From NCBI GenBank assembly GCA_013314775.1, contig JABUFB010000009.1, positions 62,001 to 126,000 of the forward strand: DNA of 64,000 nt. The letters run 5' to 3'. The notes below the pieces were generated by a model. That model did no database searches. It saw only the letters and a list, made by a program, of their open reading frames with translations, and was not told the origin of the DNA. The DNA comes from Armatimonadota bacterium. GTDB lineage: Bacteria; Armatimonadota; Zipacnadia; Zipacnadales; JABUFB01. Positions 37,325 through 52,168 of the stretch are shown piece by piece; positions within the stretch are counted from its first letter, which is position 1; every line of letters starts with the position of its first letter. The translations under genes were made by a program, and so were the position numbers.

Positions 37325-39661
37325 CTACGGTGCGGGGATGTCGCGCATGATGCGCGGAGTGACGAAGATCAGAAGCTCGGAATTCTGAGTGTTGTCACGA
37401 ACTGATTTGAAGAGCTTCCCAATGATCGGGATCTCCGAAAGCAGAGGCGTGCTACGGGTGTTGTATCGCCGCTGCTTGCGGATCATGCCTCCGAGAACGA
37501 TGGTCTCCCCATCGGCCACGGTTACCTGGGTCTCGACCTCCTGCGATGCCACGATCGGTACCTGCTCGCCATTGGGGCCCACAACGACGCCCGTCTGATC
37601 TTCCATGATCGGCGTCAGGTACATCGTCACCGTGTCATCCGCATTGATGCGCGGGGTGACCTCAAGCGTCTGCTCGATGTCGACCTCATCTTCCTCGAAC
37701 TCCACGTCTCGGCGCCCAGCTTCATTGTAGGTAATGGAGGCTGAGAAGTATGGAATCGTGGTGTAGAAGGAGATGTACGCGGGCACATTGTTCTGCGTGG
37801 TCACGTGCGGCTCGTTGATGATCTGGCCACGGTTCATGTTCTCGAGGACCCCCAGAGTGGCCTCGAACTTGCCCTGCGCCCAGCGGACAACGTTATTTAC
37901 GGCCTCACCCGGAGCGAACCCGAGGTTGAAGAACTCGAGACTTCCATTGGATACGAACCAGTCGATACCGAAGGCGTTGTCTTCTGTGACGTCCACCTCA
38001 ATGAACTTGGTCGAGATCTCGACCTGTTTCACGGGCTGATCGAGGATCGCCAGCACTTCCCGAAGCTGATCGATAGCGGCTGGATCTCCGGACACCAGGA
38101 GCGAGTTTTGGGGCATGTAAGCGATGATCGATTCAACGCCCTCCGGCCGCATCCCCAGGCCCTGGCCCTGGCCGCCTCGACCACCAAACTGGGTGCCTCC
38201 CGTACTCCGACCACTGCCGCGACCACCAGTGCCGAACCCGCCCTGGGTGCCCCCTGCACCCCGGCCGAGGCCGCCGCCGAGCTCAAGTCCCTGCATCCAG
38301 AGTTCGTCCGCACCCCGGCCGCCTGCACCGGTAATCGCGTTATTGACGCCGCCTGCGCGAGCTCTGCGGCCCGGCGAATACTGGTTGCCGGGGCGCATGT
38401 AGTTCGCTTCAGCCACTGTCCCACCGAGCAAGGTGGCGAGGTATGCGGGGTCAGCGTACTTCACGGGAATAAGCGTGGTGCTGAGTTCCCGGATTTCGCC
38501 CTGCGGAGCCGACCCCGAAGGCGCCGGAGCTGCGGCAGGAGTAGCGGCCCCTGCGTAGGCGGGAGCGGCCAACTCGCCACCGGGCAACTGCGCGAACTCG
38601 TTCCCATCCGGCTTGGTTGTCTCAGGTCCGGTCGGTTCAGTAGCAGCGCCGAGTTTTGTAGCCTCTTCCCCACTTGCGGCAGGTGCAGCCGCGGACGGCC
38701 CGATCTTGGGCGGCGTCGCGGGCGCAACGGGAACCGCGGAAGCCCCCGGAGCGAGAGCGGACGCGCTTACACTCGGCGCGACCACCGCTGTTCTGCCTCC
38801 CGGAGTGATAACCGGCGCGGGACCGCCTTTGGATCGGTTCACAGGAACCGCGGGCACCGAAGGCCTACCGGCCGCCGCGATACCGAGGTGCCCTAGCGCC
38901 GACACTCCAGGCTGAAGGTTGGCGGCAGTGGCTGGGGCGGTACCTGTTGACGGTACTCGCGATGCGGCAGGAATCGAGCCCACCGACGGAACTTGGACGC
39001 GGCTGGGCGATCCTACCGGAGCCGTCACAGCGGCGACCGTCGTCATGGGAGCGGGACCAGCGGCCGGTGGCGCCGCCGGGATCGGAGCGGGAACGTATCC
39101 AGCCGCCAGCGGTGCCTGCTGAGCTGCAGGTCGGGTGATCGCAACCGGGCTCACGCAGGCCACCGGGGCCGAGGCCGGTCCAGCGCCGCTCGCAGGAGCC
39201 ACCGGTGCCATAACCTTGGTGGGCAGCGAAGCCCCGGTACGGGCCGGCACTGCAGGCTTCGGAGGTATCGTGACGGGGACCGACGCCGCGGCGCCCGCTC
39301 CGGGATTTCGGAGCAGAGCGCCCGCGGGCAGCTCCCGCGCCGTCACAATGTACCCCGAGTCTTCTTTGTACCAGAAGAGCCCGGCGCTCAGCGCGATATA
39401 GCGCAGGGCGTCTTCGACGCTAACATTGCGCAGGTTCACGCTCTCGATGGTCCCAGTGACATCCTGGCCAACCACGATGTTGACTCCCGACGCCTCTGAG
39501 AGCATTGTCATGACTTCAGAAATCGGAGCGTCCTTGATGTTCAGGTTGATAGGCGGACTGCTCGATGCAGTCTCGTCCGCCGACGCCCCGGCGCACACCA
39601 GGATCATGGCTGCGATCGATGCTGCGAGGACACCTAGGGTGTGGATGGATGGCTTGGCCAT
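37325..39661 (-). CDS. pilQ: Type IV pilus secretin PilQ
   Basis: Forms the outer-membrane ring through which the pilus passes. The 778-residue protein (ATG 39661, GGGAGGGG upstream) has a signal peptide, an STN/N0 domain (INLNIKDAPISEVMTMLSEA, about 45-115), a very long Ala/Pro/Thr-rich linker of about 280 residues, a Gly-rich stretch (GGLGRGAGGTQGGFGTGGRG) inside an N1/N3-type domain, and the secretin core with VKQVEISTKFIEVDVTED, VPAYISFYTTIPYF, LEVTPRINADDTVTMYLTPI, VADGETIVLGGMIRK and PLLSEIPIIGKLFKS...LLIFVTPRIM. These last motifs are diagnostic. It is preceded by pilM-N-O-P-like genes and an STN protein. Confidence 0.95.
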   Translation of the reverse strand: MAKPSIHTLGVLAASIAAMILVCAGASADETASSSPPINLNIKDAPISEVMTMLSEASGVNIVVGQDVTGTIESVNLRNVSVEDALRYIALSAGLFWYKEDSGYIVTARELPAGALLRNPGAGAAASVPVTIPPKPAVPARTGASLPTKVMAPVAPASGAGPASAPVACVSPVAITRPAAQQAPLAAGYVPAPIPAAPPAAGPAPMTTVAAVTAPVGSPSRVQVPSVGSIPAASRVPSTGTAPATAANLQPGVSALGHLGIAAAGRPSVPAVPVNRSKGGPAPVITPGGRTAVVAPSVSASALAPGASAVPVAPATPPKIGPSAAAPAASGEEATKLGAATEPTGPETTKPDGNEFAQLPGGELAAPAYAGAATPAAAPAPSGSAPQGEIRELSTTLIPVKYADPAYLATLLGGTVAEANYMRPGNQYSPGRRARAGGVNNAITGAGGRGADELWMQGLELGGGLGRGAGGTQGGFGTGGRGSGRSTGGTQFGGRGGQGQGLGMRPEGVESIIAYMPQNSLLVSGDPAAIDQLREVLAILDQPVKQVEISTKFIEVDVTEDNAFGIDWFVSNGSLEFFNLGFAPGEAVNNVVRWAQGKFEATLGVLENMNRGQIINEPHVTTQNNVPAYISFYTTIPYFSASITYNEAGRRDVEFEEDEVDIEQTLEVTPRINADDTVTMYLTPIMEDQTGVVVGPNGEQVPIVASQEVETQVTVADGETIVLGGMIRKQRRYNTRSTPLLSEIPIIGKLFKSVRDNTQNSELLIFVTPRIMRDIPAP

Positions 39662-39796
39662 GGGCCCCTCCCTGCGTTTCATTCTCCGACGGGTCGCCGC
39701 CGGCCGCAGTTCGTTTTGTGCGCATTTCCGGCAATCGTGAGCAGGTTCGCCCGAAGGCACCTGCGGTCCCGTCCAGCCCCCGCGCGACAGGCAAGC

Positions 39797-40597
39797 TTAG
39801 TAGTTGCTGCGGCTGCTGCTGCGACTGCTGCTTCTGCTGCTACCGTAGTCACTGCTGCCCCGGCTGCTGCCCCGGCTGCTACCACCCCGGCTGCTGCTGC
39901 CATACCCACTACTCCCGTAGCCGCTGCTGCCGTAGCCGCCACTGCTACCATATCCACCGCCGCCCTCACCACTCATGTCGTAGATCACGTCATCGGCCTG
40001 AATGGCGTAGCCCACCGTCTCCGGGCTGGCGCGGAACAGCGGGATCACGATGAAGTGCATGGGGCGCTGTTCGGGGGTCATGGTGCCCGTGGTCATGCCC
40101 AGGGTGTTGAGGCCCGTGGTGGGCGCGCCGCCTCGTCCCGGCGGCGTGCCGAAACCGCTGGTGGGGCCAGGCATCTGCATGCCGGGGATCCCTGTAGGTG
40201 CGGGACCGGCGAATCCCCCGGGGCCACCGGGCATGCCCATATCCATTCCGGGGAACTGGGCGAAGGTCAGATCTCCGCCCGGGGCTCCCGCGGCTGCTGA
40301 GATCACCCATGTGCCGTTGCGATCCTCAGCCTGAAGGCCGGCCCGCGACACGAGGGTAGCCAGCGCGCTCTCAGGCGTTGCATCCCAGAGCGTCGCGCTG
40401 ACCACGAGCGTCCCCAGCTCGGCGGGGAGAACGTAGTTGATACCGAAATTCTTCTTGAGCGTTGCCAGCGCGTCAGAAAGCGGCTTGTCCTGCCACGTGA
40501 TCGACAGGGTATCGCCTTGCCCGCCTGCCCAACTGGTCATGCTCAATATAAGCAGGAGCGCCATCGCCACGAATACACTCAGCCAACCTCTTGTCAC
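39797..40597 (-). CDS. Exported STN-domain protein with Gly-Tyr-Ser / Ser-Arg low-complexity tail
   Basis: A 266-residue protein between the PilP-like gene and pilQ. GTG 40597 follows AGAGGTGATT; a signal peptide ends SMTSWAGG. The folded part is one STN/N0-type domain (LSITWQDKPLSDALATLKKN, closing AGLQAEDRNGTWVIS), as at secretin N-termini. A Gly/Met/Pro-rich linker, a small strand region (MHFIVIPLFRASPETVGYAI) and a tail of GYGSS repeats passing into SSRGSS/SSSR repeats follow. It may be a separate N0 module or a gatekeeper/pilotin-like partner of PilQ. I know no named family with this architecture. Confidence 0.82.
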   Translation of the reverse strand: MTRGWLSVFVAMALLLILSMTSWAGGQGDTLSITWQDKPLSDALATLKKNFGINYVLPAELGTLVVSATLWDATPESALATLVSRAGLQAEDRNGTWVISAAAGAPGGDLTFAQFPGMDMGMPGGPGGFAGPAPTGIPGMQMPGPTSGFGTPPGRGGAPTTGLNTLGMTTGTMTPEQRPMHFIVIPLFRASPETVGYAIQADDVIYDMSGEGGGGYGSSGGYGSSGYGSSGYGSSSRGGSSRGSSRGSSDYGSSRSSSRSSSRSNY

Positions 40598-40646
40598 GGC
40601 AATCACCTCTATAGCGCGGAGGCAAGCCCCGCGATTGTCGCCCAAG

Positions 40647-41705
40647 CTACTGCATTGGAGCTCCAGGCATCCCGGGCATCGGCATCTCGCCCGGGCCCAT
40701 CTCTCCGCCTGGGCCCGGGGCCATCATGCCGCCACCACCGGTCGCACCAGCCCCGGCACCCGGAAGGAGATCCCGTCTCTCCCCGGGTATGATGCGTCCG
40801 GCTTCCTGTTCTTCCCGGTAATGCTCAGCCAGCGTGCGCCTGCCGTGGGACACTCGTTCCTGACGGCTCCGCGGCTCAGCGCGCTTGCGAACCCTCTCGC
40901 CAGTGACTGGATTCTGCAGTGTGACCGCATCAGGCTCGACGGAAATGACACGCCAGGTCTGCGTGCGCTCGCTGGCGCGGTCCTCCACCCGGAGTGTCTG
41001 CCCCGGCTTGAGTATTCGTGTACGCCCGGTGGGATCCTCCCAGGTGGCGAAGGCCCGCCCGGGGGCGCCGGCACCGGTGTCATCCGCCGGCCACATGATA
41101 CTGCTTATGCGCACCAGATCAGCCGTAGCGGACGGATTGGGCGGAAGTGGCTGAGGAGGTGCGGCCGGAATGGATGCCTGGGGAAGGCGCTTGACGTACC
41201 CGATCGGCAGGGCATTCCAGTCCGGTCCGTATTTGGTCGCTCGGGTCACGAACTTTTCCTCAGGTTCTGGCGTATCAAGGGGCACGAAGGGATTCGCCCG
41301 GGACGGTTCCAGGGGCGGGGCAGGTGCAGAGGTTCCGCCGCCGCCACCCCCGGGGGCAGCACCCATTCCGGGACCGCCCATTCCGGGACCACCCATTCCG
41401 GCTTCCATTCCCCCTCCAGGGGGTCCGCCTGGGCCGCCAGGCGCCATTGCGCCACCGGGAGGGCCACCAGGACCGCCCGGAGCCATCGCTCCACCCGGAG
41501 CTCCGCCCGCGCCGGGCTCGGCTGCTGGTGCCCCGCCGCTTGGGGGTGCGCCGGCATCGGCAGCACCGGCCTCATCGTCCTGCGCATACGCAACGTTCGC
41601 GGGCTGCATGCCGGGAAGCACGAACCAGAAGGCGCACACTGCAGCCACGACGAGGACGAAGATGCCCGCAGCTACTGCAGCTCTTGCCAGTTGCTCTCTG
41701 TCCAC
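40647..41705 (-). CDS. pilP: PilP-like pilus assembly protein with Gly/Pro/Met-rich linker
   Basis: A 352-residue protein in the PilP position. One N-terminal helix (about 9-32, VAAGIFVLVVAAVCAFWFVL), a 75-residue Gly/Pro/Ala/Met region with tandem GGPGGPPGG blocks, then NPFVPLDTPEPEEKF and a small beta domain (RAFATWEDPTGRTRILKPGQ, WRVISVEPDAVTLQN) that fits the periplasmic PilP fold, which binds PilNO and the secretin. A second Gly/Met/Pro tail ends the protein. Start is GTG 41705 behind GAGGAGA. Assignment rests on position and the C-terminal pattern; direct similarity to proteobacterial PilP is weak, and there is no lipobox. Confidence 0.7.
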   Translation of the reverse strand: MDREQLARAAVAAGIFVLVVAAVCAFWFVLPGMQPANVAYAQDDEAGAADAGAPPSGGAPAAEPGAGGAPGGAMAPGGPGGPPGGAMAPGGPGGPPGGGMEAGMGGPGMGGPGMGAAPGGGGGGTSAPAPPLEPSRANPFVPLDTPEPEEKFVTRATKYGPDWNALPIGYVKRLPQASIPAAPPQPLPPNPSATADLVRISSIMWPADDTGAGAPGRAFATWEDPTGRTRILKPGQTLRVEDRASERTQTWRVISVEPDAVTLQNPVTGERVRKRAEPRSRQERVSHGRRTLAEHYREEQEAGRIIPGERRDLLPGAGAGATGGGGMMAPGPGGEMGPGEMPMPGMPGAPMQ

Positions 41706-41768
41706 GGTGGCGTCTCCTCAAGACGGGTGCGTAACTGCCACTATCACAGGCCCGAACGTCAGACCGAA

Positions 41769-42746
41769 CTATTCATCTCCGCCGCCGGCGTCTCCACCGC
41801 CGCCGCCCATGTCCCCCGGTGGCGGCCCAGCTGCGCCCCCTCCGGGAGGTCCGCCAGGGCCTGCTCCTCCGGGCGGCATACCCATTTCCATGCCGCCCCC
41901 GGGAGGACCTCCTGGTCCACCCATTCCTGGAGGCCCGCCGGGGCCACCCATTCCTGGAGGCCCGCCGGGGCCACCCATGCCGGGCGCACCGCCCATGCCG
42001 CCCGCCGCTCCTCCTGCTGCAGCCCCGCCTCCTGTGTCAGGCGTCTCGCACGCGAGCCACACACTCAGAATGAGGGGGGCGACCATGATTTCGTCGTCTG
42101 GCCGGTCAAGAACCTCTCGCACCCGATCGTACAAATCCGTATCCATCATTTCCCTGAGCCGGACCAGCCCCAGATGATGGATCGTAAGGATGCGCGGGAA
42201 GTTGCGCAGTGACTTGTAGAGCCGCTCAATATCGGCGAGGGTGCCGGCAATCCACAAGGGGTTGTTTCCGCCGCCAGCCACAGTTTGTCCCCCACCGCTA
42301 GGTGCTCCCAGCGGGAACTCGATCCACGCGGTGTTGGCCGGGTAAGGCTCCATCGGAGGTTCCCAGCCGGGATGTCCCTCGATGATCACGCAACCGCTGT
42401 CTTCGACGAACTTCTCAATGAGCTGCGGCAAGTCCTCGCGCACCTCGCGCCAGAGGTTGACCATCGCGATGAGCGGGTGCCCCATAGACAGCGGGATGCT
42501 GCGCTCGTCGAGCTTCTGGGCAAGGGACTCGTGGGAAGTCTCCCATTCGCGCTTGACCTTTTCGAGGTTCTGCTCGGCCTCCTCTTTCTGGTCGGCCTTT
42601 TTCTGCTCCTCGGAAATCTGGGCCTCCACTCCGGCGATCTCAGCCTGCTTTGGCTTGACCATGAACCAGTAGCCGGCGAATGCAACACCCAGTACGAGGA
42701 TGATGCCTACAGGGCCCAGCACGAATGGCGGTATTTTCCCAAGCAT
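41769..42746 (-). CDS. pilO: PilO-like pilus alignment protein with Gly/Met/Pro tail
   Basis: A 325-residue bitopic membrane protein: helix 7-29 (PFVLGPVGIILVLGVAFAGYW), then a coiled coil (KPKQAEIAGVEAQISEEQKK onward), then the ferredoxin-like PilO core (ERSIPLSMGHPLIAMVNLWR ... GTLADIERLYKSLRNFPRIL), and a Gly/Met/Pro/Ala tail of about 65 residues. The DNA for the tail includes an exact tandem 27-base duplication (41917-41943, 41944-41970). PilO pairs with PilN to span the periplasm under the secretin. ATG 42746 follows GAGGAG. Confidence 0.82.
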   Translation of the reverse strand: MLGKIPPFVLGPVGIILVLGVAFAGYWFMVKPKQAEIAGVEAQISEEQKKADQKEEAEQNLEKVKREWETSHESLAQKLDERSIPLSMGHPLIAMVNLWREVREDLPQLIEKFVEDSGCVIIEGHPGWEPPMEPYPANTAWIEFPLGAPSGGGQTVAGGGNNPLWIAGTLADIERLYKSLRNFPRILTIHHLGLVRLREMMDTDLYDRVREVLDRPDDEIMVAPLILSVWLACETPDTGGGAAAGGAAGGMGGAPGMGGPGGPPGMGGPGGPPGMGGPGGPPGGGMEMGMPPGGAGPGGPPGGGAAGPPPGDMGGGGGDAGGGDE

Positions 42747-42856
42747 AGATGGTAACTCCTCGATACCGTCAAGCCCTGTTCTTGGGGCGGCAAGTCAGCA
42801 TTGCACTCCAGCTCAAGTCGGGACACAACCGCGCTGCGTCACAGTCCGCGTGTAGT

Positions 42857-44065
42857 CTACTCCTCGCCACCGCCCGCGTCGTCGCCGCCACCGCCACCGC
42901 CGCCGGGAGGACCGCCCGCCGGCTCTCCGCCACCCGGAGGCCCGCCTCCTCCACCGGGAGGACCGCCCGCACCCTCAGTAGGCATGCCGCCCATCGCACC
43001 GCCTGGAGGCCCACCGCCACCGGGCATGCCGCCCATGTCGCCGCCGGGCCCCATCATTCCACCGCCGCCCATGCCACCAGCGGCGCCGCCGCCACCCAAG
43101 CCAGGAGGCGAGGGGACCATGATGGGCCGGTTAAGCTGGCAAGTGATCAGCAGGTCGATCGACCCGTCAAGTCTGGGTTGGACCACGGGCGAAACCCCGC
43201 CGCCACCACCCATACCACCGCGTCCGCCCATTCCCATATCGCCACCGGGAGCTCCGGGCATGCCGCCACCAGGGCCGCCGGGCATGCCGCCACCGGGTTC
43301 GCCCGGCATTCCACCCGGCCCTCCCGCCATACCGCCGCCCATGTCACCGCCGGGCATGCCCATGCCACCCTCCATCCCCGGGGCCCCGCCCCCTCCACCA
43401 CCGCCGCCCGAGAAGTTCAGCCCCTCGATATTCATCGTCGGGATCCCGCCAAGATTGGGCAGGTTCCACTGCTGGAGTATCGCGGGCCACTTCGCAGCAA
43501 TTGCCCGGCCGGACGGTACGGTGCCGGAGATGCGTACATTGCTGATCTCCGGGCATCGAATGATATTCAGGATGAAGCGGGCGCACTCATTCGCGTTCTT
43601 GACGGTGACACCGAAGGCGCAGTCTGGGCTTCCGCCGGACGGGCCAGTCTGCTGATACAGGGCTTCCGGATCCCCGCCACCCACCAGACCACCGGCGGGA
43701 TGGGCCATGATGCCGAAGAAACGAAGCTCGGCTCCACCGTAAATGTACTCGGCAATCTCAAAGAAACGTTCCCAGTACGGATAGCCGCACTCGTCCGCCT
43801 GTCTAATGAAGCTGATCTTGTCGGCAATTGGCTGAAGGCGCCCCTGGATACCGCCGGCCTCGGCCTCCGTTGCACGGACCTCATCGGCGGCTGCCTTCAC
43901 CTTTGTGTACTCCTCCTGCAGACTGGAGAGCTTGGCCTGCAGCGTGGTGGCGTAGAAGCCCACTCCCAGGCCCGCAGCCAAGAGCAGGAGGACGATCAGT
44001 GCAAGGAGCTTCTTGTTGGTCCGGGCTCGTCGTACACCCGGGGGCAGCAGATCGATTCTTAGCAC
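42857..44065 (-). CDS. pilN: PilN-like pilus assembly protein with long Gly/Met/Pro-rich region
   Basis: A 402-residue protein. The N-terminus MLRIDLLPPGVRR is the PilN motif (INLLP-type) that docks into PilM; a membrane helix (20-42) and a coiled coil (LQAKLSSLQEEYTKVKAAAD) follow, then a ferredoxin-like domain (about 90-225). After residue 225 come two Gly/Met/Pro-rich blocks separated by an ordered strand (SPVVQPRLDGSIDLLITCQL), so the second half is mostly low complexity. Proteobacterial PilN is about 200 residues; this is twice as long. It is followed by PilO in the same operon. Confidence 0.87.
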   Translation of the reverse strand: MLRIDLLPPGVRRARTNKKLLALIVLLLLAAGLGVGFYATTLQAKLSSLQEEYTKVKAAADEVRATEAEAGGIQGRLQPIADKISFIRQADECGYPYWERFFEIAEYIYGGAELRFFGIMAHPAGGLVGGGDPEALYQQTGPSGGSPDCAFGVTVKNANECARFILNIIRCPEISNVRISGTVPSGRAIAAKWPAILQQWNLPNLGGIPTMNIEGLNFSGGGGGGGGAPGMEGGMGMPGGDMGGGMAGGPGGMPGEPGGGMPGGPGGGMPGAPGGDMGMGGRGGMGGGGGVSPVVQPRLDGSIDLLITCQLNRPIMVPSPPGLGGGGAAGGMGGGGMMGPGGDMGGMPGGGGPPGGAMGGMPTEGAGGPPGGGGGPPGGGEPAGGPPGGGGGGGDDAGGGEE

Positions 44066-44188: not shown

Positions 44189-45523
44189 CTAGCTTTCCAC
44201 CATATCGCGCAGCGCAAGCCCAACCGCGACGACCATCGTGGGGCCGATGTCGCGCAGGTACGCGCCGGGCTGCTTATTCTCATCGGTCAGAAGCTCGGCG
44301 AAGGGATCCGCGAGCTCTACCGTTACACCGGTCTCCGCTGCGATGAAGTCACCTAGACCCGGGATCACCGCTGTACCGCCCGACAGGAGAATGCGGTCGA
44401 TCTCCTCGTTGCGGTGCTGTCTGCGGTAGAAATTCAGTGACGCCTGAACCTCGCCCGCAAGATCCACGAGGGGGGTAGCGATGGCTTCGTAGACGATCTG
44501 CCGCGCGTGAAGGTCCTGCTGCGCCTGCGGGTCCGTTGGACCCTCGGCAGGAGCAGGGGCCGACGGCGCTTCTCCGATGCCGGCTTCCGACGGCAGTATG
44601 GTGTCCAGTTGCGTCGCCTCGGCTTCCGCACCAATGGCTTCGTCGGCAAATCCCGCTTCGCCCATCATGTCGGAGACTTCGAACACGGAATCGGCTTCGT
44701 CTTCGGAGTATGCTTCCCCTCTTGCCCCGGCTCCTCCTGCAGCGTAGCCGGTTTCCTCGGGGAAAACAGATTCCGACACGTCAGCCAAGGCTTTCTTGAC
44801 CTGCTCAGCCAAGGTCTCATCACCCATGAAGTTCTGGGTGATCGCCTGGGTCAGCGCGTTTCCGGCGGTGGGAATTGTGCGGACGAAGCCCAGCAAGCCT
44901 CGGCGAACCACGATAATCAAGGTGGAATTCGCGCCGATATGCACAATGGCCACTGTCTGGTCGCTGTAGGCAGATCCGCTCACTTCCACGAGTGCGCGTG
45001 ATATTGCCAGGGGTTCGACATCGATGGCCTGGGGAAGCAGCTTGGCGGAGGTCATCACGCTCACATGGGTGTTGATCATGTCCTCCTGCGCCACGGCAAT
45101 GAGGACTTCCATGTTCTGCGCGTTTGGGTCGGCATCGGGCGCGTCAACGGGCTGGTAGTCGTAGTATGTCTGCTCGATAGGAAACGGAGTCTGGCGGTCG
45201 AGTTCCCACTGGATCGCCTCATCCAGTTCCTTGCCTGACATCTTGGGGACTTCCGTGATTCTTACCACCACGGACGATGTGCCGCCGACGGATGCAATGG
45301 TGTTCTTTGTGTGAAAACCACCGGCCTTGATGAGGTCCGACACCGCACTGGTGACCGCGGCGGCATCCACGATGACGCCGTCCTCTACACTGCGCGGAGG
45401 CGTCGGCACAACAACTGGCCGGCCGAGCACTTCAATGCCCGATCCGGTCCGTTGGAGTTCAACAGCCTTGATGGTTGAACTGCCTATGTCGAGGCCCAGA
45501 ACATGGGTATAGCCCCGCGCCAT
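44189..45523 (-). CDS. pilM: Type IV pilus assembly protein PilM (actin-like ATPase)
   Basis: Cytoplasmic actin-like protein that binds the PilN N-terminus. The 444-residue protein begins MARGYTHVLGLDIGSSTIKAVELQ (phosphate loop DIGSS), with SVGGTSSVVVRITEVPKMS, LVEVSGSAYSDQTVAIVHIG and the C-terminal RILLSGGTAVIPGLGDFIAAETG. An acidic insertion of about 110 residues (roughly 245-345, SVFPEETGYAAGG to APAEGPTDPQAQQ) is absent from standard PilM. ATG 45523 follows AGGAGGAG. It heads the pilM-N-O-P-STN-Q operon behind a good promoter. Confidence 0.92.
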   Translation of the reverse strand: MARGYTHVLGLDIGSSTIKAVELQRTGSGIEVLGRPVVVPTPPRSVEDGVIVDAAAVTSAVSDLIKAGGFHTKNTIASVGGTSSVVVRITEVPKMSGKELDEAIQWELDRQTPFPIEQTYYDYQPVDAPDADPNAQNMEVLIAVAQEDMINTHVSVMTSAKLLPQAIDVEPLAISRALVEVSGSAYSDQTVAIVHIGANSTLIIVVRRGLLGFVRTIPTAGNALTQAITQNFMGDETLAEQVKKALADVSESVFPEETGYAAGGAGARGEAYSEDEADSVFEVSDMMGEAGFADEAIGAEAEATQLDTILPSEAGIGEAPSAPAPAEGPTDPQAQQDLHARQIVYEAIATPLVDLAGEVQASLNFYRRQHRNEEIDRILLSGGTAVIPGLGDFIAAETGVTVELADPFAELLTDENKQPGAYLRDIGPTMVVAVGLALRDMVES

Positions 45524-45588
45524 GCGTGGCTCCTCCTGCGTGCGGGCAATGCAAGACCGGAAGGCGCCCTGCGGCAAGCACCCGGCAA

Positions 45589-45839: not shown

Positions 45840-48800
45840 CTACGGGTACGGCAGATTGGGCCTGAAGCGGTCCATCGCATTGCTGGCGGCAAGCCGTTCT
45901 CGCACCAGCGACGGGAACTCGGGTGTCACAGTGCAGTAATAGATGTCCGAAGACTGCCGGACCTCTGACCCGCCATCGGAGGCATCGCGAAGGTCGTACA
46001 GCGGCCTCGGGCTGGACCAGAAGATCCAGTAGCGCCTTGCCACAAGCATGTCCGGGTTCGTCACGGGCAGTGACGGTACCCGGTAGGTTTCCTCAACCAC
46101 CCGCAGCGGGCCTTCGGAAAGGACGCTGTCGATGGGCACAATCGTCTCCTGACTCCAGCCGCCAATGGTGTGAATCTCATCCGCACTGGCGGTCTGCACG
46201 TTGCCGGCATCATCCAGATACTCGTAGTCATACTGCACACGGATCTGGCTGCCAGGCCCCAGCGGGTCACGCCGCCGCTGCCCGTCCGGATACGTCACCC
46301 AGCGATAGACGCCAAGCCAGATCGCGATCTCCCCGTTCTGCATGTCGGCGTCAAACTCGGCGCGGTGGCCGGAGTAGCTGCCCGGGGGAAGGCCGGGATA
46401 TCCGGGCAGAGCGCCCACGACCTCTTCCGGAGTGCCCGGACCGTAGAGTTCAGGCTGAGGATCGGTGGTATCTGATGGATACCGCACCACCAGGTTTCCG
46501 GCGATCGGAGGATGGTTCACCTGGATTGTCCACGACTGCATCTTCATCATGTAGCTGGTGCGTCCATAGTACGGCGCTTGGCCTGTCCCATAGCTGCGAC
46601 GCCAGAAGAGCAGAACGCGGTTGTTATGGCTTCCAAGCGGCCACGGGTAGGTGTACGAACCCGCGGGCTGGTTCCCCAGCCATGCGCCGGACTGCAGGAT
46701 CGCGGTCGGGCAATCATCATCAGCGGGACTCAGGGTGTGGCGCCACAGGAACGGTGAGTACTCGCCGGCCAGGAAAACGTCGTCGATGGTAGATGCGAGC
46801 GCGGGGAAAGAGCGGCTGAATACGGTCGCCGGGTCGTTCGGCTCCAGGGCATTGAACAAAGGTCCGGAGAACCGGACGCGCCCGAGAGTCGGGTCGATCT
46901 CCATCATCAACGGGCGCTTTTCGGCGTCAGGAAGGCCGTACGTTGCCGGATCGATCAGCTCATAGCGATCTTCCCCGTTAGGTCCGGAGGCCGGGTAATA
47001 GCGCACATTGGGCAGGCTGCCATCCTCCGGAGCCACAGGACCGGCCGGCCACTGGAGGGTGCTCAGGTCTGTGAACAGACCATCCTCCTTGTGTCTTGCG
47101 AAACGCGGAATGACACGGTAGACGCCCCGGGTCTCGTCATACTGTTCGCCCCGGGTCGGGTTTGCAGGTCCCCAGCTGATGTCGTAGTAGCTGATCTCCC
47201 AGGTGGTCCCGTGCTGACGCACACCGATGCGGAAGGATGCCCCCGGACTGCCATTGTTGATGTAATTGCTTCCGGTCACCCAGTCCAGATGGCGTGAATG
47301 GAACTCTCGACGGAGCTCGTCGGGCGTGAATTCCTCGCCCGGGCTCTCACCGGGCGAATTCGTAGCTCCGGTCCCCGGTGGCGGCCCGGGCCGGGACTCG
47401 CTGGGGTTCAGTACAGGGAGCCCTTCCGGCTGTCCGTCCATGGTCCCCGAATGAACGTACTGGAACTCCACCTTCCCGTTGTTATTCGCCCCTGTCAACA
47501 GATCATGCCGGTTGAACCGAGCCTCGTAGATGTCGAAGTTGCCAAGGTGCCGCGCATAGCCGGCGAAGAAGACCCGCAACATGGGCTGGGTCGCCGTCCC
47601 ACCTGTGCTGGTGTCGTAGACAACCGGCGGCAGATAGAGCATTGGCGCCAGGTCCTTCACCGCCTGGAACGGCCCATGCGGGGTTCTCCGCAGCGTGACC
47701 GCTGATGCCGGCGAGGGCCCGAAGGCATCAGTGTCGTACATGGTCTGCACGGTGGTCTGCGGATCGATCGCGGGAATGCTGTTATCAATCGGCAGGGCGG
47801 CCACACGGTTAGTGCCGTCCGCAAGGGCGACATGGTACATCGGGCGCTCTTGGCCCCGTACCCCGGTATGCCAGAAGGTCCAGTGCCCGGATGCGGCTCC
47901 GCCATTGGCGATGTCTCCGTCCCACAGGCCCCGCACTCCTTGAGGCTTCGCCTGTCCGGTCCAGATCAGCCCCGTGCCGGATGCATCGGAGTAGTGAATC
48001 TCCGAACGCAACGCGCCACCCACTGCGCCGGAAGACACCCACAGAGACCGGTAGCCCGCGGGATACGGGTACACATCCAACGGCCCGCTCTGTGACAGGG
48101 GGCCGCCCAGGCTGGTCAGCGGTGTCGGAGGGCCTGCAAGCCAGTCGTAGCTGCGGTTGATGCCCGAGCCCGAGACGTTCGCTCGTGCTGATACCAGGTT
48201 CATGGGAGCATCCGGCGGCGGGACGGCGTCCGGGTCTCCCGGATCCGGATCGTTGGTCATCCACATGACCTGCAACTGCTGCGGATCACCGTTCGCATCA
48301 TACATGAACAGCGCCGTCGGAGACGTGTCCACCGAATGGTAGTCGTTGTAGGGAAGACGGGACTCGGAGACCCTCAGATGGGCCTCGGCGGCCATGTAAG
48401 GCTCCAAGGCCACATCGCGGTCCGGGTCGAACACATACCGGGCGCTGGTGACATTCCCCACTCCGGGCCGCGTGAAGTCCAGCAGCCCGTTACCGTTCTG
48501 ATCCATGAAGTACAGTTGAGGCATCTCATATCGGCCCAGAAGCTGGCCGGTGCCCACGATGTTCGTGGCACCCACGTTCATGGCGCCTGCGCTTACACTC
48601 GCCCCACCCTCAGGGTTCATCACCGGCAACCACGGTGTCGCGGCATCGGCCGACAAAGGCAGCAGACCAACCGCTTCGTGGAAGATCTCCTTGAGGGACG
48701 CCGGAATCGGGTTACGCTGGTTGACCCAGCCGTAGCCCCGTTTCTTCGATGGGTCGGGTCCCCAGTCATTCTGGCCCGCATCGGCCCGGAAGAACCTGTA

Positions 48801-51800
48801 CCAGGCATCGTCTACACCGGAAACCCCCGGCGACGTCCCGTATATGCCGGGAATCGTGTTCCCATCGTTTCGCAGACTGAAGTTCCCCCAGTGGGATGTC
48901 CCCATGGGGTCCGCGCGACGACCGGCAGGTGTCCCGCCGGCATCCGCGACCGTGATGTCCGGTGTGGCGCCAGTGCCCGATGCCACGCGCCCCATGTCCG
49001 TCGCCGGACTGGACGCCACCAGTTGGGTCCGCTTCGGCACCGATAACTGGATGTCGTATGCGTCGAATTCCTCGGCCGTCAGGTCCGCGAAACCGAAATT
49101 CGGGTTCCCGGCCACGTTCGGCGCGGGGTCTACGGTGCTCAACGGCACGCCTGTCAACGGACAGGTGCCGGTTCCGGCCGCATGCACGGCGCCGGTGATT
49201 GGGCTCCATTCGTGCCCTGGACAATCGGGATTCTGGCAGTGGAACGCCAGCCCCGGTCCGGGGAGGACGGTGTTCCAGGCGGACCCGGAATCCGGGCCGA
49301 TGCCGGGCTCGGTGGCCGGGGTCGCCGTGTGATTGCTGGTGCAGATGAACACCCTGCCCTGGGCGTTGGTCACCAGGTTGTTGGTCACGTAAGCCTGCCC
49401 AGGCCGCCATCCCGGGAGCGGAGCGCCGCAGTCGGGGCACACATAGTAGGCGTCCCACTTGTCGTTATCATCGAAAACAGTCTGCAGACGCCGCAACTCC
49501 CATTTGTGCGGGTCGGTGAGGGGAGCGGCGGGATCGAAAGCCGTTGCCCGTGCTTCTGTCTGCCCATACGTCAGCGCGGTCCCGCGGTAGCCCCAGTTTG
49601 CCTCGTAATCTTGGCTGTTTCCCGGCGCCTCGCCCGGCTCAGACGCAGGCTGCCCGGGCGGGACACTCACCGTGATGTACTGGTCCGTCCCATCGTAGCC
49701 TGCAGCAGCCGAGCCCAGGCTGACCACCTTGTTGTCCAGCCCCACCGTCACCCGGGAGTCGGGGATGCTCGGCCGCAGGGACGGGAAAGCATTGATCCAG
49801 GGCACCGGATTGCCCGAGCCATCCGTGCCTATCTCGGGAACGGTCAGAGACCGAACCAACTGGGTATCTGCAGGGCTGCCGGCGGCTTCCACCGTCACGA
49901 GACCCACGCGGGGCCCCGGCGCGATGTACAGGTCCGCGGCATGGGCCGCGTCAGGCTGGCCGTGGTCGCCGTGGTACGGGCAGATCCCCGCGCCCTTGTC
50001 CTCCGGGTAGACATCCCCGTTGGCTTCCCAATACAGGTTCCAGTTAGCGCCTACTGGTGGCCGATTGTTCGCCGCGGAAATGTGCTCTCGAATGCACAGG
50101 TACCACGGTAGCCCTAGCAACCGGTCACCGGGCCGGTAGTGGTAATTGGCTTGCCACACCCCACCGTTCAGCGCGTGGACAAAACCGCTCCCGCGGTCCT
50201 GGATGTCGGTGAATTTCGCACCGCATTCGGGGCACACATAGTACCGGTCATTCTGGGTGAGCTGGTTGCGCACCACGAACTCCCGCCGCGCGCTGGTCTC
50301 ACCCGGCCGGACTACTATTCCGGTGCCATCACTGGCGCCAACCAGGAAGCGCGGATAGGTCCCCGTCAGCGTCTCGATGTTCCCGTGGTGGTCGCTGTCA
50401 TTACTGCGCGGAACATTGTAACGCGAAACCAGGAAGCGGCTCTCGATCGGCTCATATTCCGAGGCGAAACTCGGCAGACTCTGGGCCACCGCCGAGTTTG
50501 TGGGACGGTTCAGCCGATCCATGTACCATTCCGTGTCGTCGTACCAGAACGTACGGACGTTCGCGTTGACGCCGTGGATAAGTTCGATCGAGTCGAGGGC
50601 AGGAGTGTGCAGCCCCGCATCCCACGGGTTCACACCATTCTGCCAGCGCATTTGGACCTTGCCTGCCCCGACTTCCCCTGGCCTGATGGAGTATGGCGTG
50701 CCGTTCCCGGCAGCCGTCGGGTCGCCCATGACTGCATCCGTGCTGTGCACGATGCGGTCGGCGCCGAAAGTGAAATAGACCCCGCGGCGCTCCCAGGACG
50801 GCATGTCGTTCAGACCCGCTTCGCTGAGAACCGGGCTGCCGAACCCCAGAGCAGGACCATCCATGCCCATTGTCGGCGGCGGATTGGTCTTCACATTGGA
50901 GCGTGTCTGGAAGCTGATCTCCCAGACAGCGCCGGTCGCGTCGGCCGTGGGATCGGCCAGCACAGGCAGGACCAGGCGCAGTGAGCCGCTTGCTGTGACG
51001 ATGCGGATGTAGTTGACGCCCGCGGGTGCGACCCCGGGCTGTCTTTCGCTGTCAAACTCCAGCCCATAGAGCCGCGAGTAGACCCAGATCCGCCACCCGC
51101 TGATCTCGCCAGGCACCAGTGGATCCGCGGCGCGAGACACGTACCGGATGTAGTAGGCGTCCTCGTCGGCGATCTTCTGCGATCCGAGCTGGATGATGAC
51201 AGGTCGCGTGAAGACTTCCGTCCACGCGAAATTGGACCAGAGCGTCCCGATGCCTGGCTCGTTCGCAAGAGGCCAGCCCTGCGGGATGGCGATGTGCCAG
51301 TTGCGGCACTCGAAATACCGGGTACCCGCTCCCAGATCGTGCTTCACCCAGTCTCCCACGTTATACGTAGTGCCGGCGGACCAGTCGGGCACATTACTTG
51401 GCGGCAGTTCAGGCGCGTCCCCGTAATTCTGCTGGGTGTAGCGAGTGGCGTATGTCCGCGCATAGCTGACGCCGGGCGGGAAAGTGACAAAGTGAGCGCG
51501 AGTCAGGTTCGGATCTGCGGCAGGCCAGGCAAACTCAGAGTAGACCGTGCCGTTCGGCGCGTTCGAGGCGCCAGGGCGATTGGGGTGAAATGGGCGGCCA
51601 ACCACAGCGCGGAACTGGTTGGGGTCGTTGTATGTCTGGCCTCCGGTGGGAATACTGGTGTCGCGGTACGCTACGTCGCAGGAAGGCACCCCGCCTGCGC
51701 TGCGCTGGGGTGTTGCGATATCAAGTACGCGCTGCTCCAGGTCCTCAACCGGGATCAGAGTGGTGTTTGGGTGCTGGGCGGCGGGCAGGCCCAGAGGATT

Positions 51801-52031
51801 TGGGCAAGTGTAGTTGCCCGGCGGCAGCACCGCGGAGTAGCCACAGATCGGGCAAACGTAATTGCCCCGCAGTTTGCTCAGACCAAACTGGTGGGTGTCA
51901 TCCGCATAGGCGGCGCTTGCCGTATCCACGATGCTCGTGCGTACTTCGTAGGCCGGCTGCGCCATTGCAACCGACGCCGCGATGAGCGCAATACCTACCG
52001 TGAGGGGAACGATACCACTTCTCTGCCTCAT
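45840..52031 (-). CDS. Giant exported protein with CBM5/12-like and CPxCG modules, pilus-cluster associated
   Basis: A 2,063-residue exported protein; ATG 52031 follows GGAGAGGGTG and starts a Sec signal peptide ending AMAQ. The N-terminal half holds three CBM5/12-like modules (pattern W..G..Y..GD.V...G..Y.C...H...P......W), at DNA about 51,225-51,395, 50,030-50,160 and 49,280-49,420. It also has CPxCG knuckles: VCPICG (residues 60-63), VCPECG (DNA near 50,230) and VCPDCG (near 49,435). The later knuckles have matching Cys only after the carbohydrate module (ICPYHG; CQNPDCPGH and CPLTG). DQNGNGLLDF is a calcium-loop type motif. The C-terminal half is beta-rich and unassigned. It is the last gene of the minor-pilin run, so a pilus-tip or surface adhesin role is inferred. 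Confidence 0.85.
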   Translation of the reverse strand: MRQRSGIVPLTVGIALIAASVAMAQPAYEVRTSIVDTASAAYADDTHQFGLSKLRGNYVCPICGYSAVLPPGNYTCPNPLGLPAAQHPNTTLIPVEDLEQRVLDIATPQRSAGGVPSCDVAYRDTSIPTGGQTYNDPNQFRAVVGRPFHPNRPGASNAPNGTVYSEFAWPAADPNLTRAHFVTFPPGVSYARTYATRYTQQNYGDAPELPPSNVPDWSAGTTYNVGDWVKHDLGAGTRYFECRNWHIAIPQGWPLANEPGIGTLWSNFAWTEVFTRPVIIQLGSQKIADEDAYYIRYVSRAADPLVPGEISGWRIWVYSRLYGLEFDSERQPGVAPAGVNYIRIVTASGSLRLVLPVLADPTADATGAVWEISFQTRSNVKTNPPPTMGMDGPALGFGSPVLSEAGLNDMPSWERRGVYFTFGADRIVHSTDAVMGDPTAAGNGTPYSIRPGEVGAGKVQMRWQNGVNPWDAGLHTPALDSIELIHGVNANVRTFWYDDTEWYMDRLNRPTNSAVAQSLPSFASEYEPIESRFLVSRYNVPRSNDSDHHGNIETLTGTYPRFLVGASDGTGIVVRPGETSARREFVVRNQLTQNDRYYVCPECGAKFTDIQDRGSGFVHALNGGVWQANYHYRPGDRLLGLPWYLCIREHISAANNRPPVGANWNLYWEANGDVYPEDKGAGICPYHGDHGQPDAAHAADLYIAPGPRVGLVTVEAAGSPADTQLVRSLTVPEIGTDGSGNPVPWINAFPSLRPSIPDSRVTVGLDNKVVSLGSAAAGYDGTDQYITVSVPPGQPASEPGEAPGNSQDYEANWGYRGTALTYGQTEARATAFDPAAPLTDPHKWELRRLQTVFDDNDKWDAYYVCPDCGAPLPGWRPGQAYVTNNLVTNAQGRVFICTSNHTATPATEPGIGPDSGSAWNTVLPGPGLAFHCQNPDCPGHEWSPITGAVHAAGTGTCPLTGVPLSTVDPAPNVAGNPNFGFADLTAEEFDAYDIQLSVPKRTQLVASSPATDMGRVASGTGATPDITVADAGGTPAGRRADPMGTSHWGNFSLRNDGNTIPGIYGTSPGVSGVDDAWYRFFRADAGQNDWGPDPSKKRGYGWVNQRNPIPASLKEIFHEAVGLLPLSADAATPWLPVMNPEGGASVSAGAMNVGATNIVGTGQLLGRYEMPQLYFMDQNGNGLLDFTRPGVGNVTSARYVFDPDRDVALEPYMAAEAHLRVSESRLPYNDYHSVDTSPTALFMYDANGDPQQLQVMWMTNDPDPGDPDAVPPPDAPMNLVSARANVSGSGINRSYDWLAGPPTPLTSLGGPLSQSGPLDVYPYPAGYRSLWVSSGAVGGALRSEIHYSDASGTGLIWTGQAKPQGVRGLWDGDIANGGAASGHWTFWHTGVRGQERPMYHVALADGTNRVAALPIDNSIPAIDPQTTVQTMYDTDAFGPSPASAVTLRRTPHGPFQAVKDLAPMLYLPPVVYDTSTGGTATQPMLRVFFAGYARHLGNFDIYEARFNRHDLLTGANNNGKVEFQYVHSGTMDGQPEGLPVLNPSESRPGPPPGTGATNSPGESPGEEFTPDELRREFHSRHLDWVTGSNYINNGSPGASFRIGVRQHGTTWEISYYDISWGPANPTRGEQYDETRGVYRVIPRFARHKEDGLFTDLSTLQWPAGPVAPEDGSLPNVRYYPASGPNGEDRYELIDPATYGLPDAEKRPLMMEIDPTLGRVRFSGPLFNALEPNDPATVFSRSFPALASTIDDVFLAGEYSPFLWRHTLSPADDDCPTAILQSGAWLGNQPAGSYTYPWPLGSHNNRVLLFWRRSYGTGQAPYYGRTSYMMKMQSWTIQVNHPPIAGNLVVRYPSDTTDPQPELYGPGTPEEVVGALPGYPGLPPGSYSGHRAEFDADMQNGEIAIWLGVYRWVTYPDGQRRRDPLGPGSQIRVQYDYEYLDDAGNVQTASADEIHTIGGWSQETIVPIDSVLSEGPLRVVEETYRVPSLPVTNPDMLVARRYWIFWSSPRPLYDLRDASDGGSEVRQSSDIYYCTVTPEFPSLVRERLAASNAMDRFRPNLPYP

Positions 52032-52168
52032 GGGCTTCACCCTCTCCAACTGCAGCGCGCTGTCGTCTGGTCTAACCGGGCATACTGCCCTGCGACAGGC
52101 GCGTGATTCTCATCTGCAGGCCGCGCGTGCGGCCCTTGTGTCACACCCCGCTCGGGTCTCTGCCGGAT

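Follow-up and report, generated by a model that had tools for sequence, protein, structure and literature searches.

Within-genome matching of low-complexity tails on the pilus proteins PilN, PilO and PilP of Armatimonadota

We analyzed a stretch of 64,000 nucleotides (hereafter the window; G000:C9:62001-126000) from the 6.1-Mb genome of an armatimonadete with respect to Gly/Met/Pro-rich low-complexity segments on three of its pilus proteins, PilN, PilO and PilP. G labels denote genomes, L labels loci and f labels families. The minus-strand gene order is pilM, pilN, pilO, pilP-like, the gene of an STN-domain protein, pilQ, aroC and aroK/aroB, where the aro names represent a reading of the translations with no family search behind them. 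From these genes, the locus is predicted to be the type IVa pilus alignment complex (PilM-N-O-P-Q) of Armatimonadota. PilM (44189–45577; all operon coordinates refer to the minus strand), the cytoplasmic partner of PilN, whose gene adjoins pilN, scored 212.8 bits with TIGR01175 (cut-off 133). PilN (42857–44065, 402 aa) comprises an N-terminal IDLLP motif, a membrane helix with coiled coil and a ferredoxin-like domain with a large insert. A Pfam search with PilN gave no match, and in Foldseek its model gave weak matches at most, of which the best, to PilO, had E 0.03, so that its identification rests on a profile search, in which a profile built from orthologues matched the PilN chain of Myxococcus xanthus (3jc8_Na, E = 1.1e-10); the LLP motif is invariant in 28 sequences. 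PilO (41769–42746, 325 aa), which combines a membrane helix and coiled coil with a ferredoxin-like core, had its best Foldseek matches in the PilO structures 3jc8 and 2rjz, and its profile matched the M. xanthus chain 3jc8_Oa (E = 9.2e-10); with Pfam PilO it scored 17.1 bits, below the cut-off of 22. The PilP-like protein (40647–41705, 352 aa) consists of an N-terminal membrane helix, a long linker and a C-terminal beta domain. It gave no Pfam PilP match and only a weak match to GspC (3oss_C, E = 0.1), and was assigned by its position, its layout and its NPF/PGD motifs; no lipobox was evident on reading the sequence. The STN-domain protein (39797–40645, 282 aa; STN E = 0.0071, below the cut-off) contains an internal Gly/Met/Pro linker, and PilQ (37325–39760) is a secretin (PF00263, E = 1.2e-40, 139.3 bits; TIGR02515, 208 bits, under its own cut-off of 284.35) with a Gly/Arg/Gln loop within Secretin_N.

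Low-complexity blocks were delimited by a threshold of at least 14 G/M/P/A per 20 residues. When 40 open reading frames (ORFs) of the window were ranked by Gly/Met/Pro density (the six known pilus-operon ORFs forced in, the remainder filled by length), PilN, PilO and PilP took ranks 1–3. The best 40-residue count of G + M + P was 39 in PilO, 36 in PilP, 36 in PilN, 28 in the STN protein, 22 in PilQ and at most 21 in the others. The first-pass annotation had proposed such tails on all three proteins, and blocks were indeed found on each of them within 40647–44065, with a layout that calls for amendment of the word tails. PilN carries an internal block (residues 214–297; 43175–43426) and a C-tail (residues 321–402, ending in DDAGGGEE; 42860–43105; threshold block 312–402). 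In the AlphaFold model, a confident strand (residues 303–311; 43133–43159), whose residue L311 is invariant in 28 orthologues, separates both blocks; the first block is therefore a loop before the last ferredoxin-like strand and the second a free tail. PilO bears a single C-tail (residues 234–325, ending in DAGGGDE; 41772–42047; threshold block 231–325), in which a 27-bp tandem repeat encodes the unit GMGGPGGPP (41899–41993). In PilP, the Gly/Met/Pro block is mainly a linker from the membrane anchor to the folded domain (residues 41–137; 41295–41585), to which a short C-tail is added (residues 310–352; 40650–40778). The tails of PilN and PilO in the window measure 85 and 92 residues. A proposed check by disorder prediction bore out the expectation: the predicted local distance difference test score (pLDDT) is below 50 over the whole of PilO 239–325 and most of PilN 205–294 and 325–402, and both tails and the PilN loop are thus predicted to be disordered. 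That proteobacterial counterparts lack such tails held for the M. xanthus chains in the Protein Data Bank, to which this comparison was confined (PilN 225 aa, PilO 205 aa).

The pooled PilN and PilO tails contain about 8% Met (ATG) and are nearly devoid of aromatic residues, with few cationic ones; regular Tyr/Phe and Arg stickers were not found in the pooled tails (Y 0.2/0.4% and R 2.7/2.5% in PilN/PilO). Low-complexity domains with aromatic and arginine stickers are known as FUS-like, and it is the STN C-tail that does resemble such a domain. The internal Gly/Met/Pro linker of the STN protein, pointed out in the first-pass annotation, was confirmed, but the protein terminates in a quite different Ser/Gly/Tyr/Arg C-tail with Gly/Ser-Tyr-Gly/Ser and Arg-Gly-Ser stretches (39800–39970). 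In 11 of 14 genomes it closes with an aromatic residue (Y, F or W), a possible signal for sorting or for the outer membrane. Two trivial origins of the blocks were rejected. Opposite-strand ORFs are open across the region, but plus-strand shadow genes were dismissed because the minus-strand frames have core orthologues throughout the phylum and their tails show a rate of nonsynonymous substitution (dN) far below the synonymous rate (dS) in that frame. GC content as the sole cause was likewise discarded: the abundance of Met and the persistence of tails over a GC content at third codon positions (GC3) of 0.29–0.94 in the cores indicate more than base composition, and GC3-matched controls fitted worse than own partners.

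Using a PilO profile built from cores alone and thus blind to tails (E ≤ 1e-8), we detected PilO in 233 of 291 Armatimonadota genomes. The loci read came from some 137 genomes, a smaller set than the 233 with PilO, picked in the order of their PilO-core or PilM score and not by tails. The resulting 139 entries, including second loci of two genomes (G037b and G034b), comprised 130 with PilN, 135 with PilO and 107 with a PilP that passed the NPF filter. The near-duplicates G036, G037b, G190 and G269 were removed before counting, and 124 non-redundant operons had complete PilN and PilO. C-tails of at least 30 aa, delimited by a heuristic tail-start rule that misplaces a few starts (e.g., in G209 PilN and G172 PilO), were present on PilN in 116/124 and on PilO in 111/124 operons, with median lengths of 56 and 49.5 aa that correlate across operons (Spearman 0.53). 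An internal PilN stretch of at least 40 aa poor in hydrophobic residues occurred in 87/124, and 55 of these stretches were at least half G/P/M/A. Comparison of orthologues thus confirmed the co-occurrence of tails, but not the constancy of composition, since the style shifts between lineages: Gly-Met-Pro in the family of the window, acidic Met-Pro in f6, Gly-Tyr-Pro in G079, Arg-Gly in G247 and Met-Met-Gly in f13. Tails are mostly acidic in f1–f6 (with exceptions in f2, f3 and f5) and near neutral in most other families. The claim covers Armatimonadota only: outside the phylum, the comparison comprised M. xanthus chain lengths, and a Pfam PilO search that missed the genome of the window itself matched in 3 of 14 control genomes without returning loci.

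Tails of less than 20 aa were left out of the similarity tests, which retained 116 of the 124 operons. The composition distance between PilN and PilO tails of the same genome was 0.080, compared with 0.138 in shuffles among all genomes and 0.097 in shuffles within families (0/5000 reached the observed value). Likewise, own partners shared 5.28 5-mers on average versus 0.88 in all-genome and 3.14 in within-family shuffles (0/5000). The match withstood four tail definitions as well as the removal of 10 genomes with high codon sharing or of 11 PilN sequences that lack the LLP motif. In disjoint sister pairs, the own partner was closer in 35/49 (p = 0.0002), with 17/19 at 60–85% core identity and 11/16 below 60%, and in comparisons matched for GC3, it beat the median of the ten nearest genomes in 99/116. 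The PilN and PilO tails therefore match within a genome beyond relatedness and beyond GC content. The PilP linker also matches both PilN and PilO (0/3000 within-family shuffles each, n = 89). A match of the last six residues within families was real but weak (1.46 versus 1.26 identical positions; 10/5000 shuffles reached it), and a family-wise examination of charge complementarity between PilN and PilO tails gave no general pattern.

Within the operon, the match is confined to part of the machine. Across 19 genomes with the whole operon, the mean distance was 0.073 between PilN and PilO tails, but 0.417 and 0.425 from these to the STN tail and 0.266 from the PilN tail to the PilQ loop, while the STN tail and the PilQ loop were 0.201 apart; the PilN–PilO distance was below that of PilN to the STN tail in 19/19 and below that to the PilQ loop in 18/19 genomes. 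The PilP linker, although its gene adjoins that of the STN protein, lay at 0.083 from PilN and 0.420 from the STN tail, and was nearer to PilN in 14/14. The operon thus appears to combine two style groups, one of inner-membrane and one of outer-membrane proteins, with locations inferred from the protein families. Some motifs are restricted to the pilus genes: G069, G070 and G072 each have exactly two copies of MMGGSGSMMGG, one at the PilN end and the other at the PilO end, and all 5 matches of PGSVRPPG in G018 fall within pilNOP, with none in its sister species G015 and G024. In G047, 9 of 13 GGPPMPGG matches lie in pilNOP.

The tails are under purifying selection. We estimated dN and dS by simple counting methods, in which dN can be underestimated where repeats are aligned. 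Between the window and a relative of the same genus, dN/dS values were 0.060/0.559 for the PilN tail, 0.062/0.564 over its residues 321–402, 0.017/0.576 for the PilN core, 0.026/0.470 for the PilO tail and 0.029/0.518 for the PilO core, 0.031/0.836 for the PilP linker (residues 41–135), 0.031/0.861 for the internal PilN block (residues 218–293) and 0.134/0.539 for the short C-tail of PilP. The ratio for the tails of this pair (G000/G001) was thus about 0.06–0.11. Other close pairs gave similar results, some with faster tails (e.g., the PilO tail of G082/G083, 0.268/0.85).

Synonymous sites bear on how the match arose. In the best shared PilN–PilO segments (score at least 8), which were obtained from 36 genomes, 221 of 415 codons were alike compared with 148.7 expected. 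This excess includes recent DNA copies, with 23/24 codons alike in G018, where near-identical 26-bp words are present in all three pilNOP genes, 16/16 in G057 and 14/16 in G237. In other genomes, the peptide is shared at codons no more alike than expected by chance: the 22 residues identical between PilN and PilO of G069 have 6/17 codons alike (6.4 expected), and G240 has 6/22 (7.1 expected). There are hence two regimes, recent DNA copies and old matches in which the peptide was kept while synonymous sites were randomized. Copying between neighbors supplies the match, and something then keeps the peptide; the data favor some selection on the peptide, which is not proof of contact.

Similar segments also exist outside the operon. 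In the genome of the window, the strict patterns GGPGGPP, MGGPGG and GGMGG also match lipoproteins, a HlyD-type adaptor, a CpxP-like protein (our reading of a Metal_resist match below cut-off), secreted multi-linker proteins and GroEL. The closest carrier is a zinc-ribbon lipoprotein (L224:502-1713, on G000:C14), whose C-tail is very similar to the PilO tail; 19 of the 60 codons agree (17.0 expected by chance). One or several large secreted proteins (G000:C1:186-191 kb; L230–L234) contain many GGMPGGM linkers between repeated domains, and GroEL (L239, on G000:C6) has the known chaperonin tail, GGMGGMGGMGGMM, at its end.

Our best reading of these findings, which we put forward tentatively, is that the PilNO ring carries a brush of disordered chains that co-evolve and are predicted to make like-with-like contacts. 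Built as in the Thermus model outlined below, the ring would display a dense layer of like chains, made up of 12 C-tails and 6 PilN loops that face the PilP linkers. Numerous weak contacts would join these chains to each other and to the disordered PilP linker, and may hold the inner-membrane ring and the PilP–PilQ tether together while leaving them compliant as the pilus extends and retracts. If one partner changed its style, the others would follow, partly through DNA copying between adjacent genes and partly through selection on the peptide. Weak contacts of like with like would explain why PilN, PilO and PilP share one style while the STN protein and PilQ show another. A further-reaching version, in which ring and tether recognize each other partly via self-similar disordered tails and the style acts as a periplasmic address code, appears unlikely to us; here, Gly/Met/Pro (PilN–PilO–PilP) versus Ser/Gly/Tyr/Arg or Gly/Tyr/Phe (STN–PilQ) would mark two subcomplexes.

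A number of observations weigh against the brush. Only 57/116 genomes share more PilN–PilO 5-mers than shuffled tails (p < 0.05), and no effect of composition was seen in the 14 sister pairs that are most closely related (core identity at least 85%; 7/14), although a joint drift of styles with time would produce such a pattern, an effect absent above 85% and clear at 60–85%. Nor is the style a property of the pilus alone. Exported non-pilus proteins of the genome of the window carry similar segments, and the lipoprotein C-tail is 93% identical in local alignment and lies at a distance of 0.031 from the PilN and 0.023 from the PilO tail, versus 0.013 between PilN and PilO. The remaining 4 of the 13 motif matches in G047 reside in two other genes, and in G247, 2/6 motif matches are in pilN and 4/6 outside pilus genes, including two near-identical genes, one of which has a visible export signal. 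Moreover, the case that the first-pass annotation had named as a refutation, orthologues without the tail on one or two partners and no loss of the pilus, does occur, as some lineages are short of one tail and yet pilN and pilO stay adjacent in all of them: the PilO tail measures 5 aa versus 63 aa for PilN in G191 and, by the tail-start rule that misplaces it, 7 aa versus 76 aa in G172; several PilO tails in f15 and f45 comprise about 20 aa, and G047 PilN has no C-tail next to a PilO tail of 67 aa. The suggestion of a shared function rather than chance fared better: tails that occur together throughout the phylum, are kept by selection and match within each genome make a shared role likelier than chance, though not one restricted to the pilus. 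The flexible or condensing periplasmic collar suggested there would have to be formed, on PilN and PilO, by tails almost devoid of aromatic residues and poor in cationic ones.

The main rival to the brush is molecular drive, which we regard as somewhat unlikely. The tails would then be generic flexible, hydrophilic extensions that are homogenized by repeat slippage and by gene conversion among neighboring GC-rich repeats, with no need for contact. The recent copies in G018, G057 and G237, the overall excess of codons alike, the 26-bp words of G018 and the 27-bp repeat of the window PilO are all in line with such a process. It does not account for the persistence of peptide identity at randomized synonymous sites in G069 and G240, or between PilO and a lipoprotein encoded on another contig; in addition, the match survives removal of the genomes with high codon sharing, and the adjoining STN tail has not been drawn in. 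We consider it quite improbable that Gly/Pro/Met-rich segments are a genome-wide default linker of exported proteins, with the pilus proteins as three carriers of passive spacers. Three lipoproteins, the HlyD-type adaptor, the CpxP-like protein and the large secreted multi-domain proteins are carriers beyond the operon, as such a habit would have it, but the STN tail and the PilQ loop of the same operon are styled differently, the idiosyncratic motifs of G069, G070, G072 and G018 occur nowhere else in these genomes, and PilN and PilO carry their blocks at free ends or in loops rather than between domains.

Two further ideas concern the conformation of the tails. They might reach into the ring as a mildly hydrophobic, flexible lining prone to polyproline II that handles pilins or the pilus. 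This very improbable role would fit the GGM runs in the tails and the GGM tail that GroEL bears in the same genome, as well as reports that GroEL Gly-Met C-tails are functionally needed, with both flexibility and hydrophobicity being important (passages of PMC11978752), and adopt polyproline II (passages of PMC12571646). Many lineages have Met-poor or acidic tails, however, and a lining predicts no match between PilN and PilO beyond composition; the inward direction of the tails is, moreover, an assumption. Collagen-like triple helices formed by Gly-X-Y runs, a check for which had also been proposed, are scarcely credible. Although the window PilO contains a run of 12 Gly-X-Y triplets, such runs were longer than in shuffles (p < 0.05) in only 27/232 tails, the mean run was 3.7 versus 3.1, and X and Y are often Gly. 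For want of sustained Gly-X-Y periodicity, a collagen-like domain was thus mostly rejected.

Some observations concern the surroundings of the locus. PilM has a long acidic Ala/Glu-rich insert (about 44500–44740), at which matches to relatives frequently break. A scan of a named collection with PilM gave 3 loci, of which L033, from an "Armatimonadetes bacterium" metagenome-assembled genome, encodes a PilM 95% identical to that of the window. Upstream of pilM (45840–52049) lies the gene of an exported-looking 2069-aa protein with zinc-ribbon and CBM_5_12 matches, and relatives such as G001 and G002 possess large ORFs upstream of pilM with similar C-termini. At L113 (G037:C142) and L111 (G032), pilN and pilO are identical at the DNA level across different genera; G037 has another pil locus, and the identity is probably due to bin contamination.

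It is an open question whether the composition of low-complexity segments, which tend to be regarded as filler or tethers, confers specificity. Armatimonadota offer a natural experiment in this respect: one machine throughout a phylum underwent repeated changes of style, in which partners follow while an operon neighbor differs. The PilNOP system supplies paired tail sequences for comparison, and synonymous sites can separate selection from gene conversion. For pilus biology, the data point to a phylum-wide form of the PilNOP complex with an extra, predicted disordered layer. That the tails on PilN, PilO and PilP match and are preserved suggests that they work together. A literature search revealed no account of a PilO with a glycine-rich C-terminal extension, of glycine-rich low complexity in Armatimonadetes, or of concerted evolution or gene conversion of low-complexity disordered regions between interacting proteins. 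As far as this search reaches, the matching of low-complexity tails between different partners within a genome is thus undescribed. Prokaryotic low-complexity regions in general are likewise Gly/Pro/Ala-rich and conserved according to passages of a survey (PMC6821194), in which the term pilus is absent and partner matching was not seen.

In gene order, folds, the IDLLP motif of PilN and the secretin, the complex resembles the type IVa alignment complex PilMNOP–PilQ of M. xanthus and Pseudomonas aeruginosa, from which it differs in that PilN and PilO bear long conserved tails, that PilP has a long linker and no evident lipobox, and that an STN-domain protein is added. In the model proposed for Thermus, as outlined in parts of PMC13039148, a PilNO ring of six heterodimers (12 subunits) is bridged to PilQ by PilW, the proposed functional counterpart of PilP, which is long, Gly/Pro-rich and flexible like the PilP linker of the window. 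The bridging protein alone is described there as Gly/Pro-rich, whereas in Armatimonadota PilN and PilO are so as well, and matched. GroEL provides a second parallel, as it also bears conserved disordered Gly/Met C-tails on ring subunits that are selected for composition (passages of PMC11978752 and PMC12571646). This likeness is an analogy: PilN and PilO have Gly/Met-rich C-tails but are no chaperonins, and while the GroEL tails comprise about 24 residues, are cytosolic and belong to one protein, those of the PilNO complex typically span about 50 or more residues, lie in the periplasm and are shared by two to three partners whose styles co-vary.

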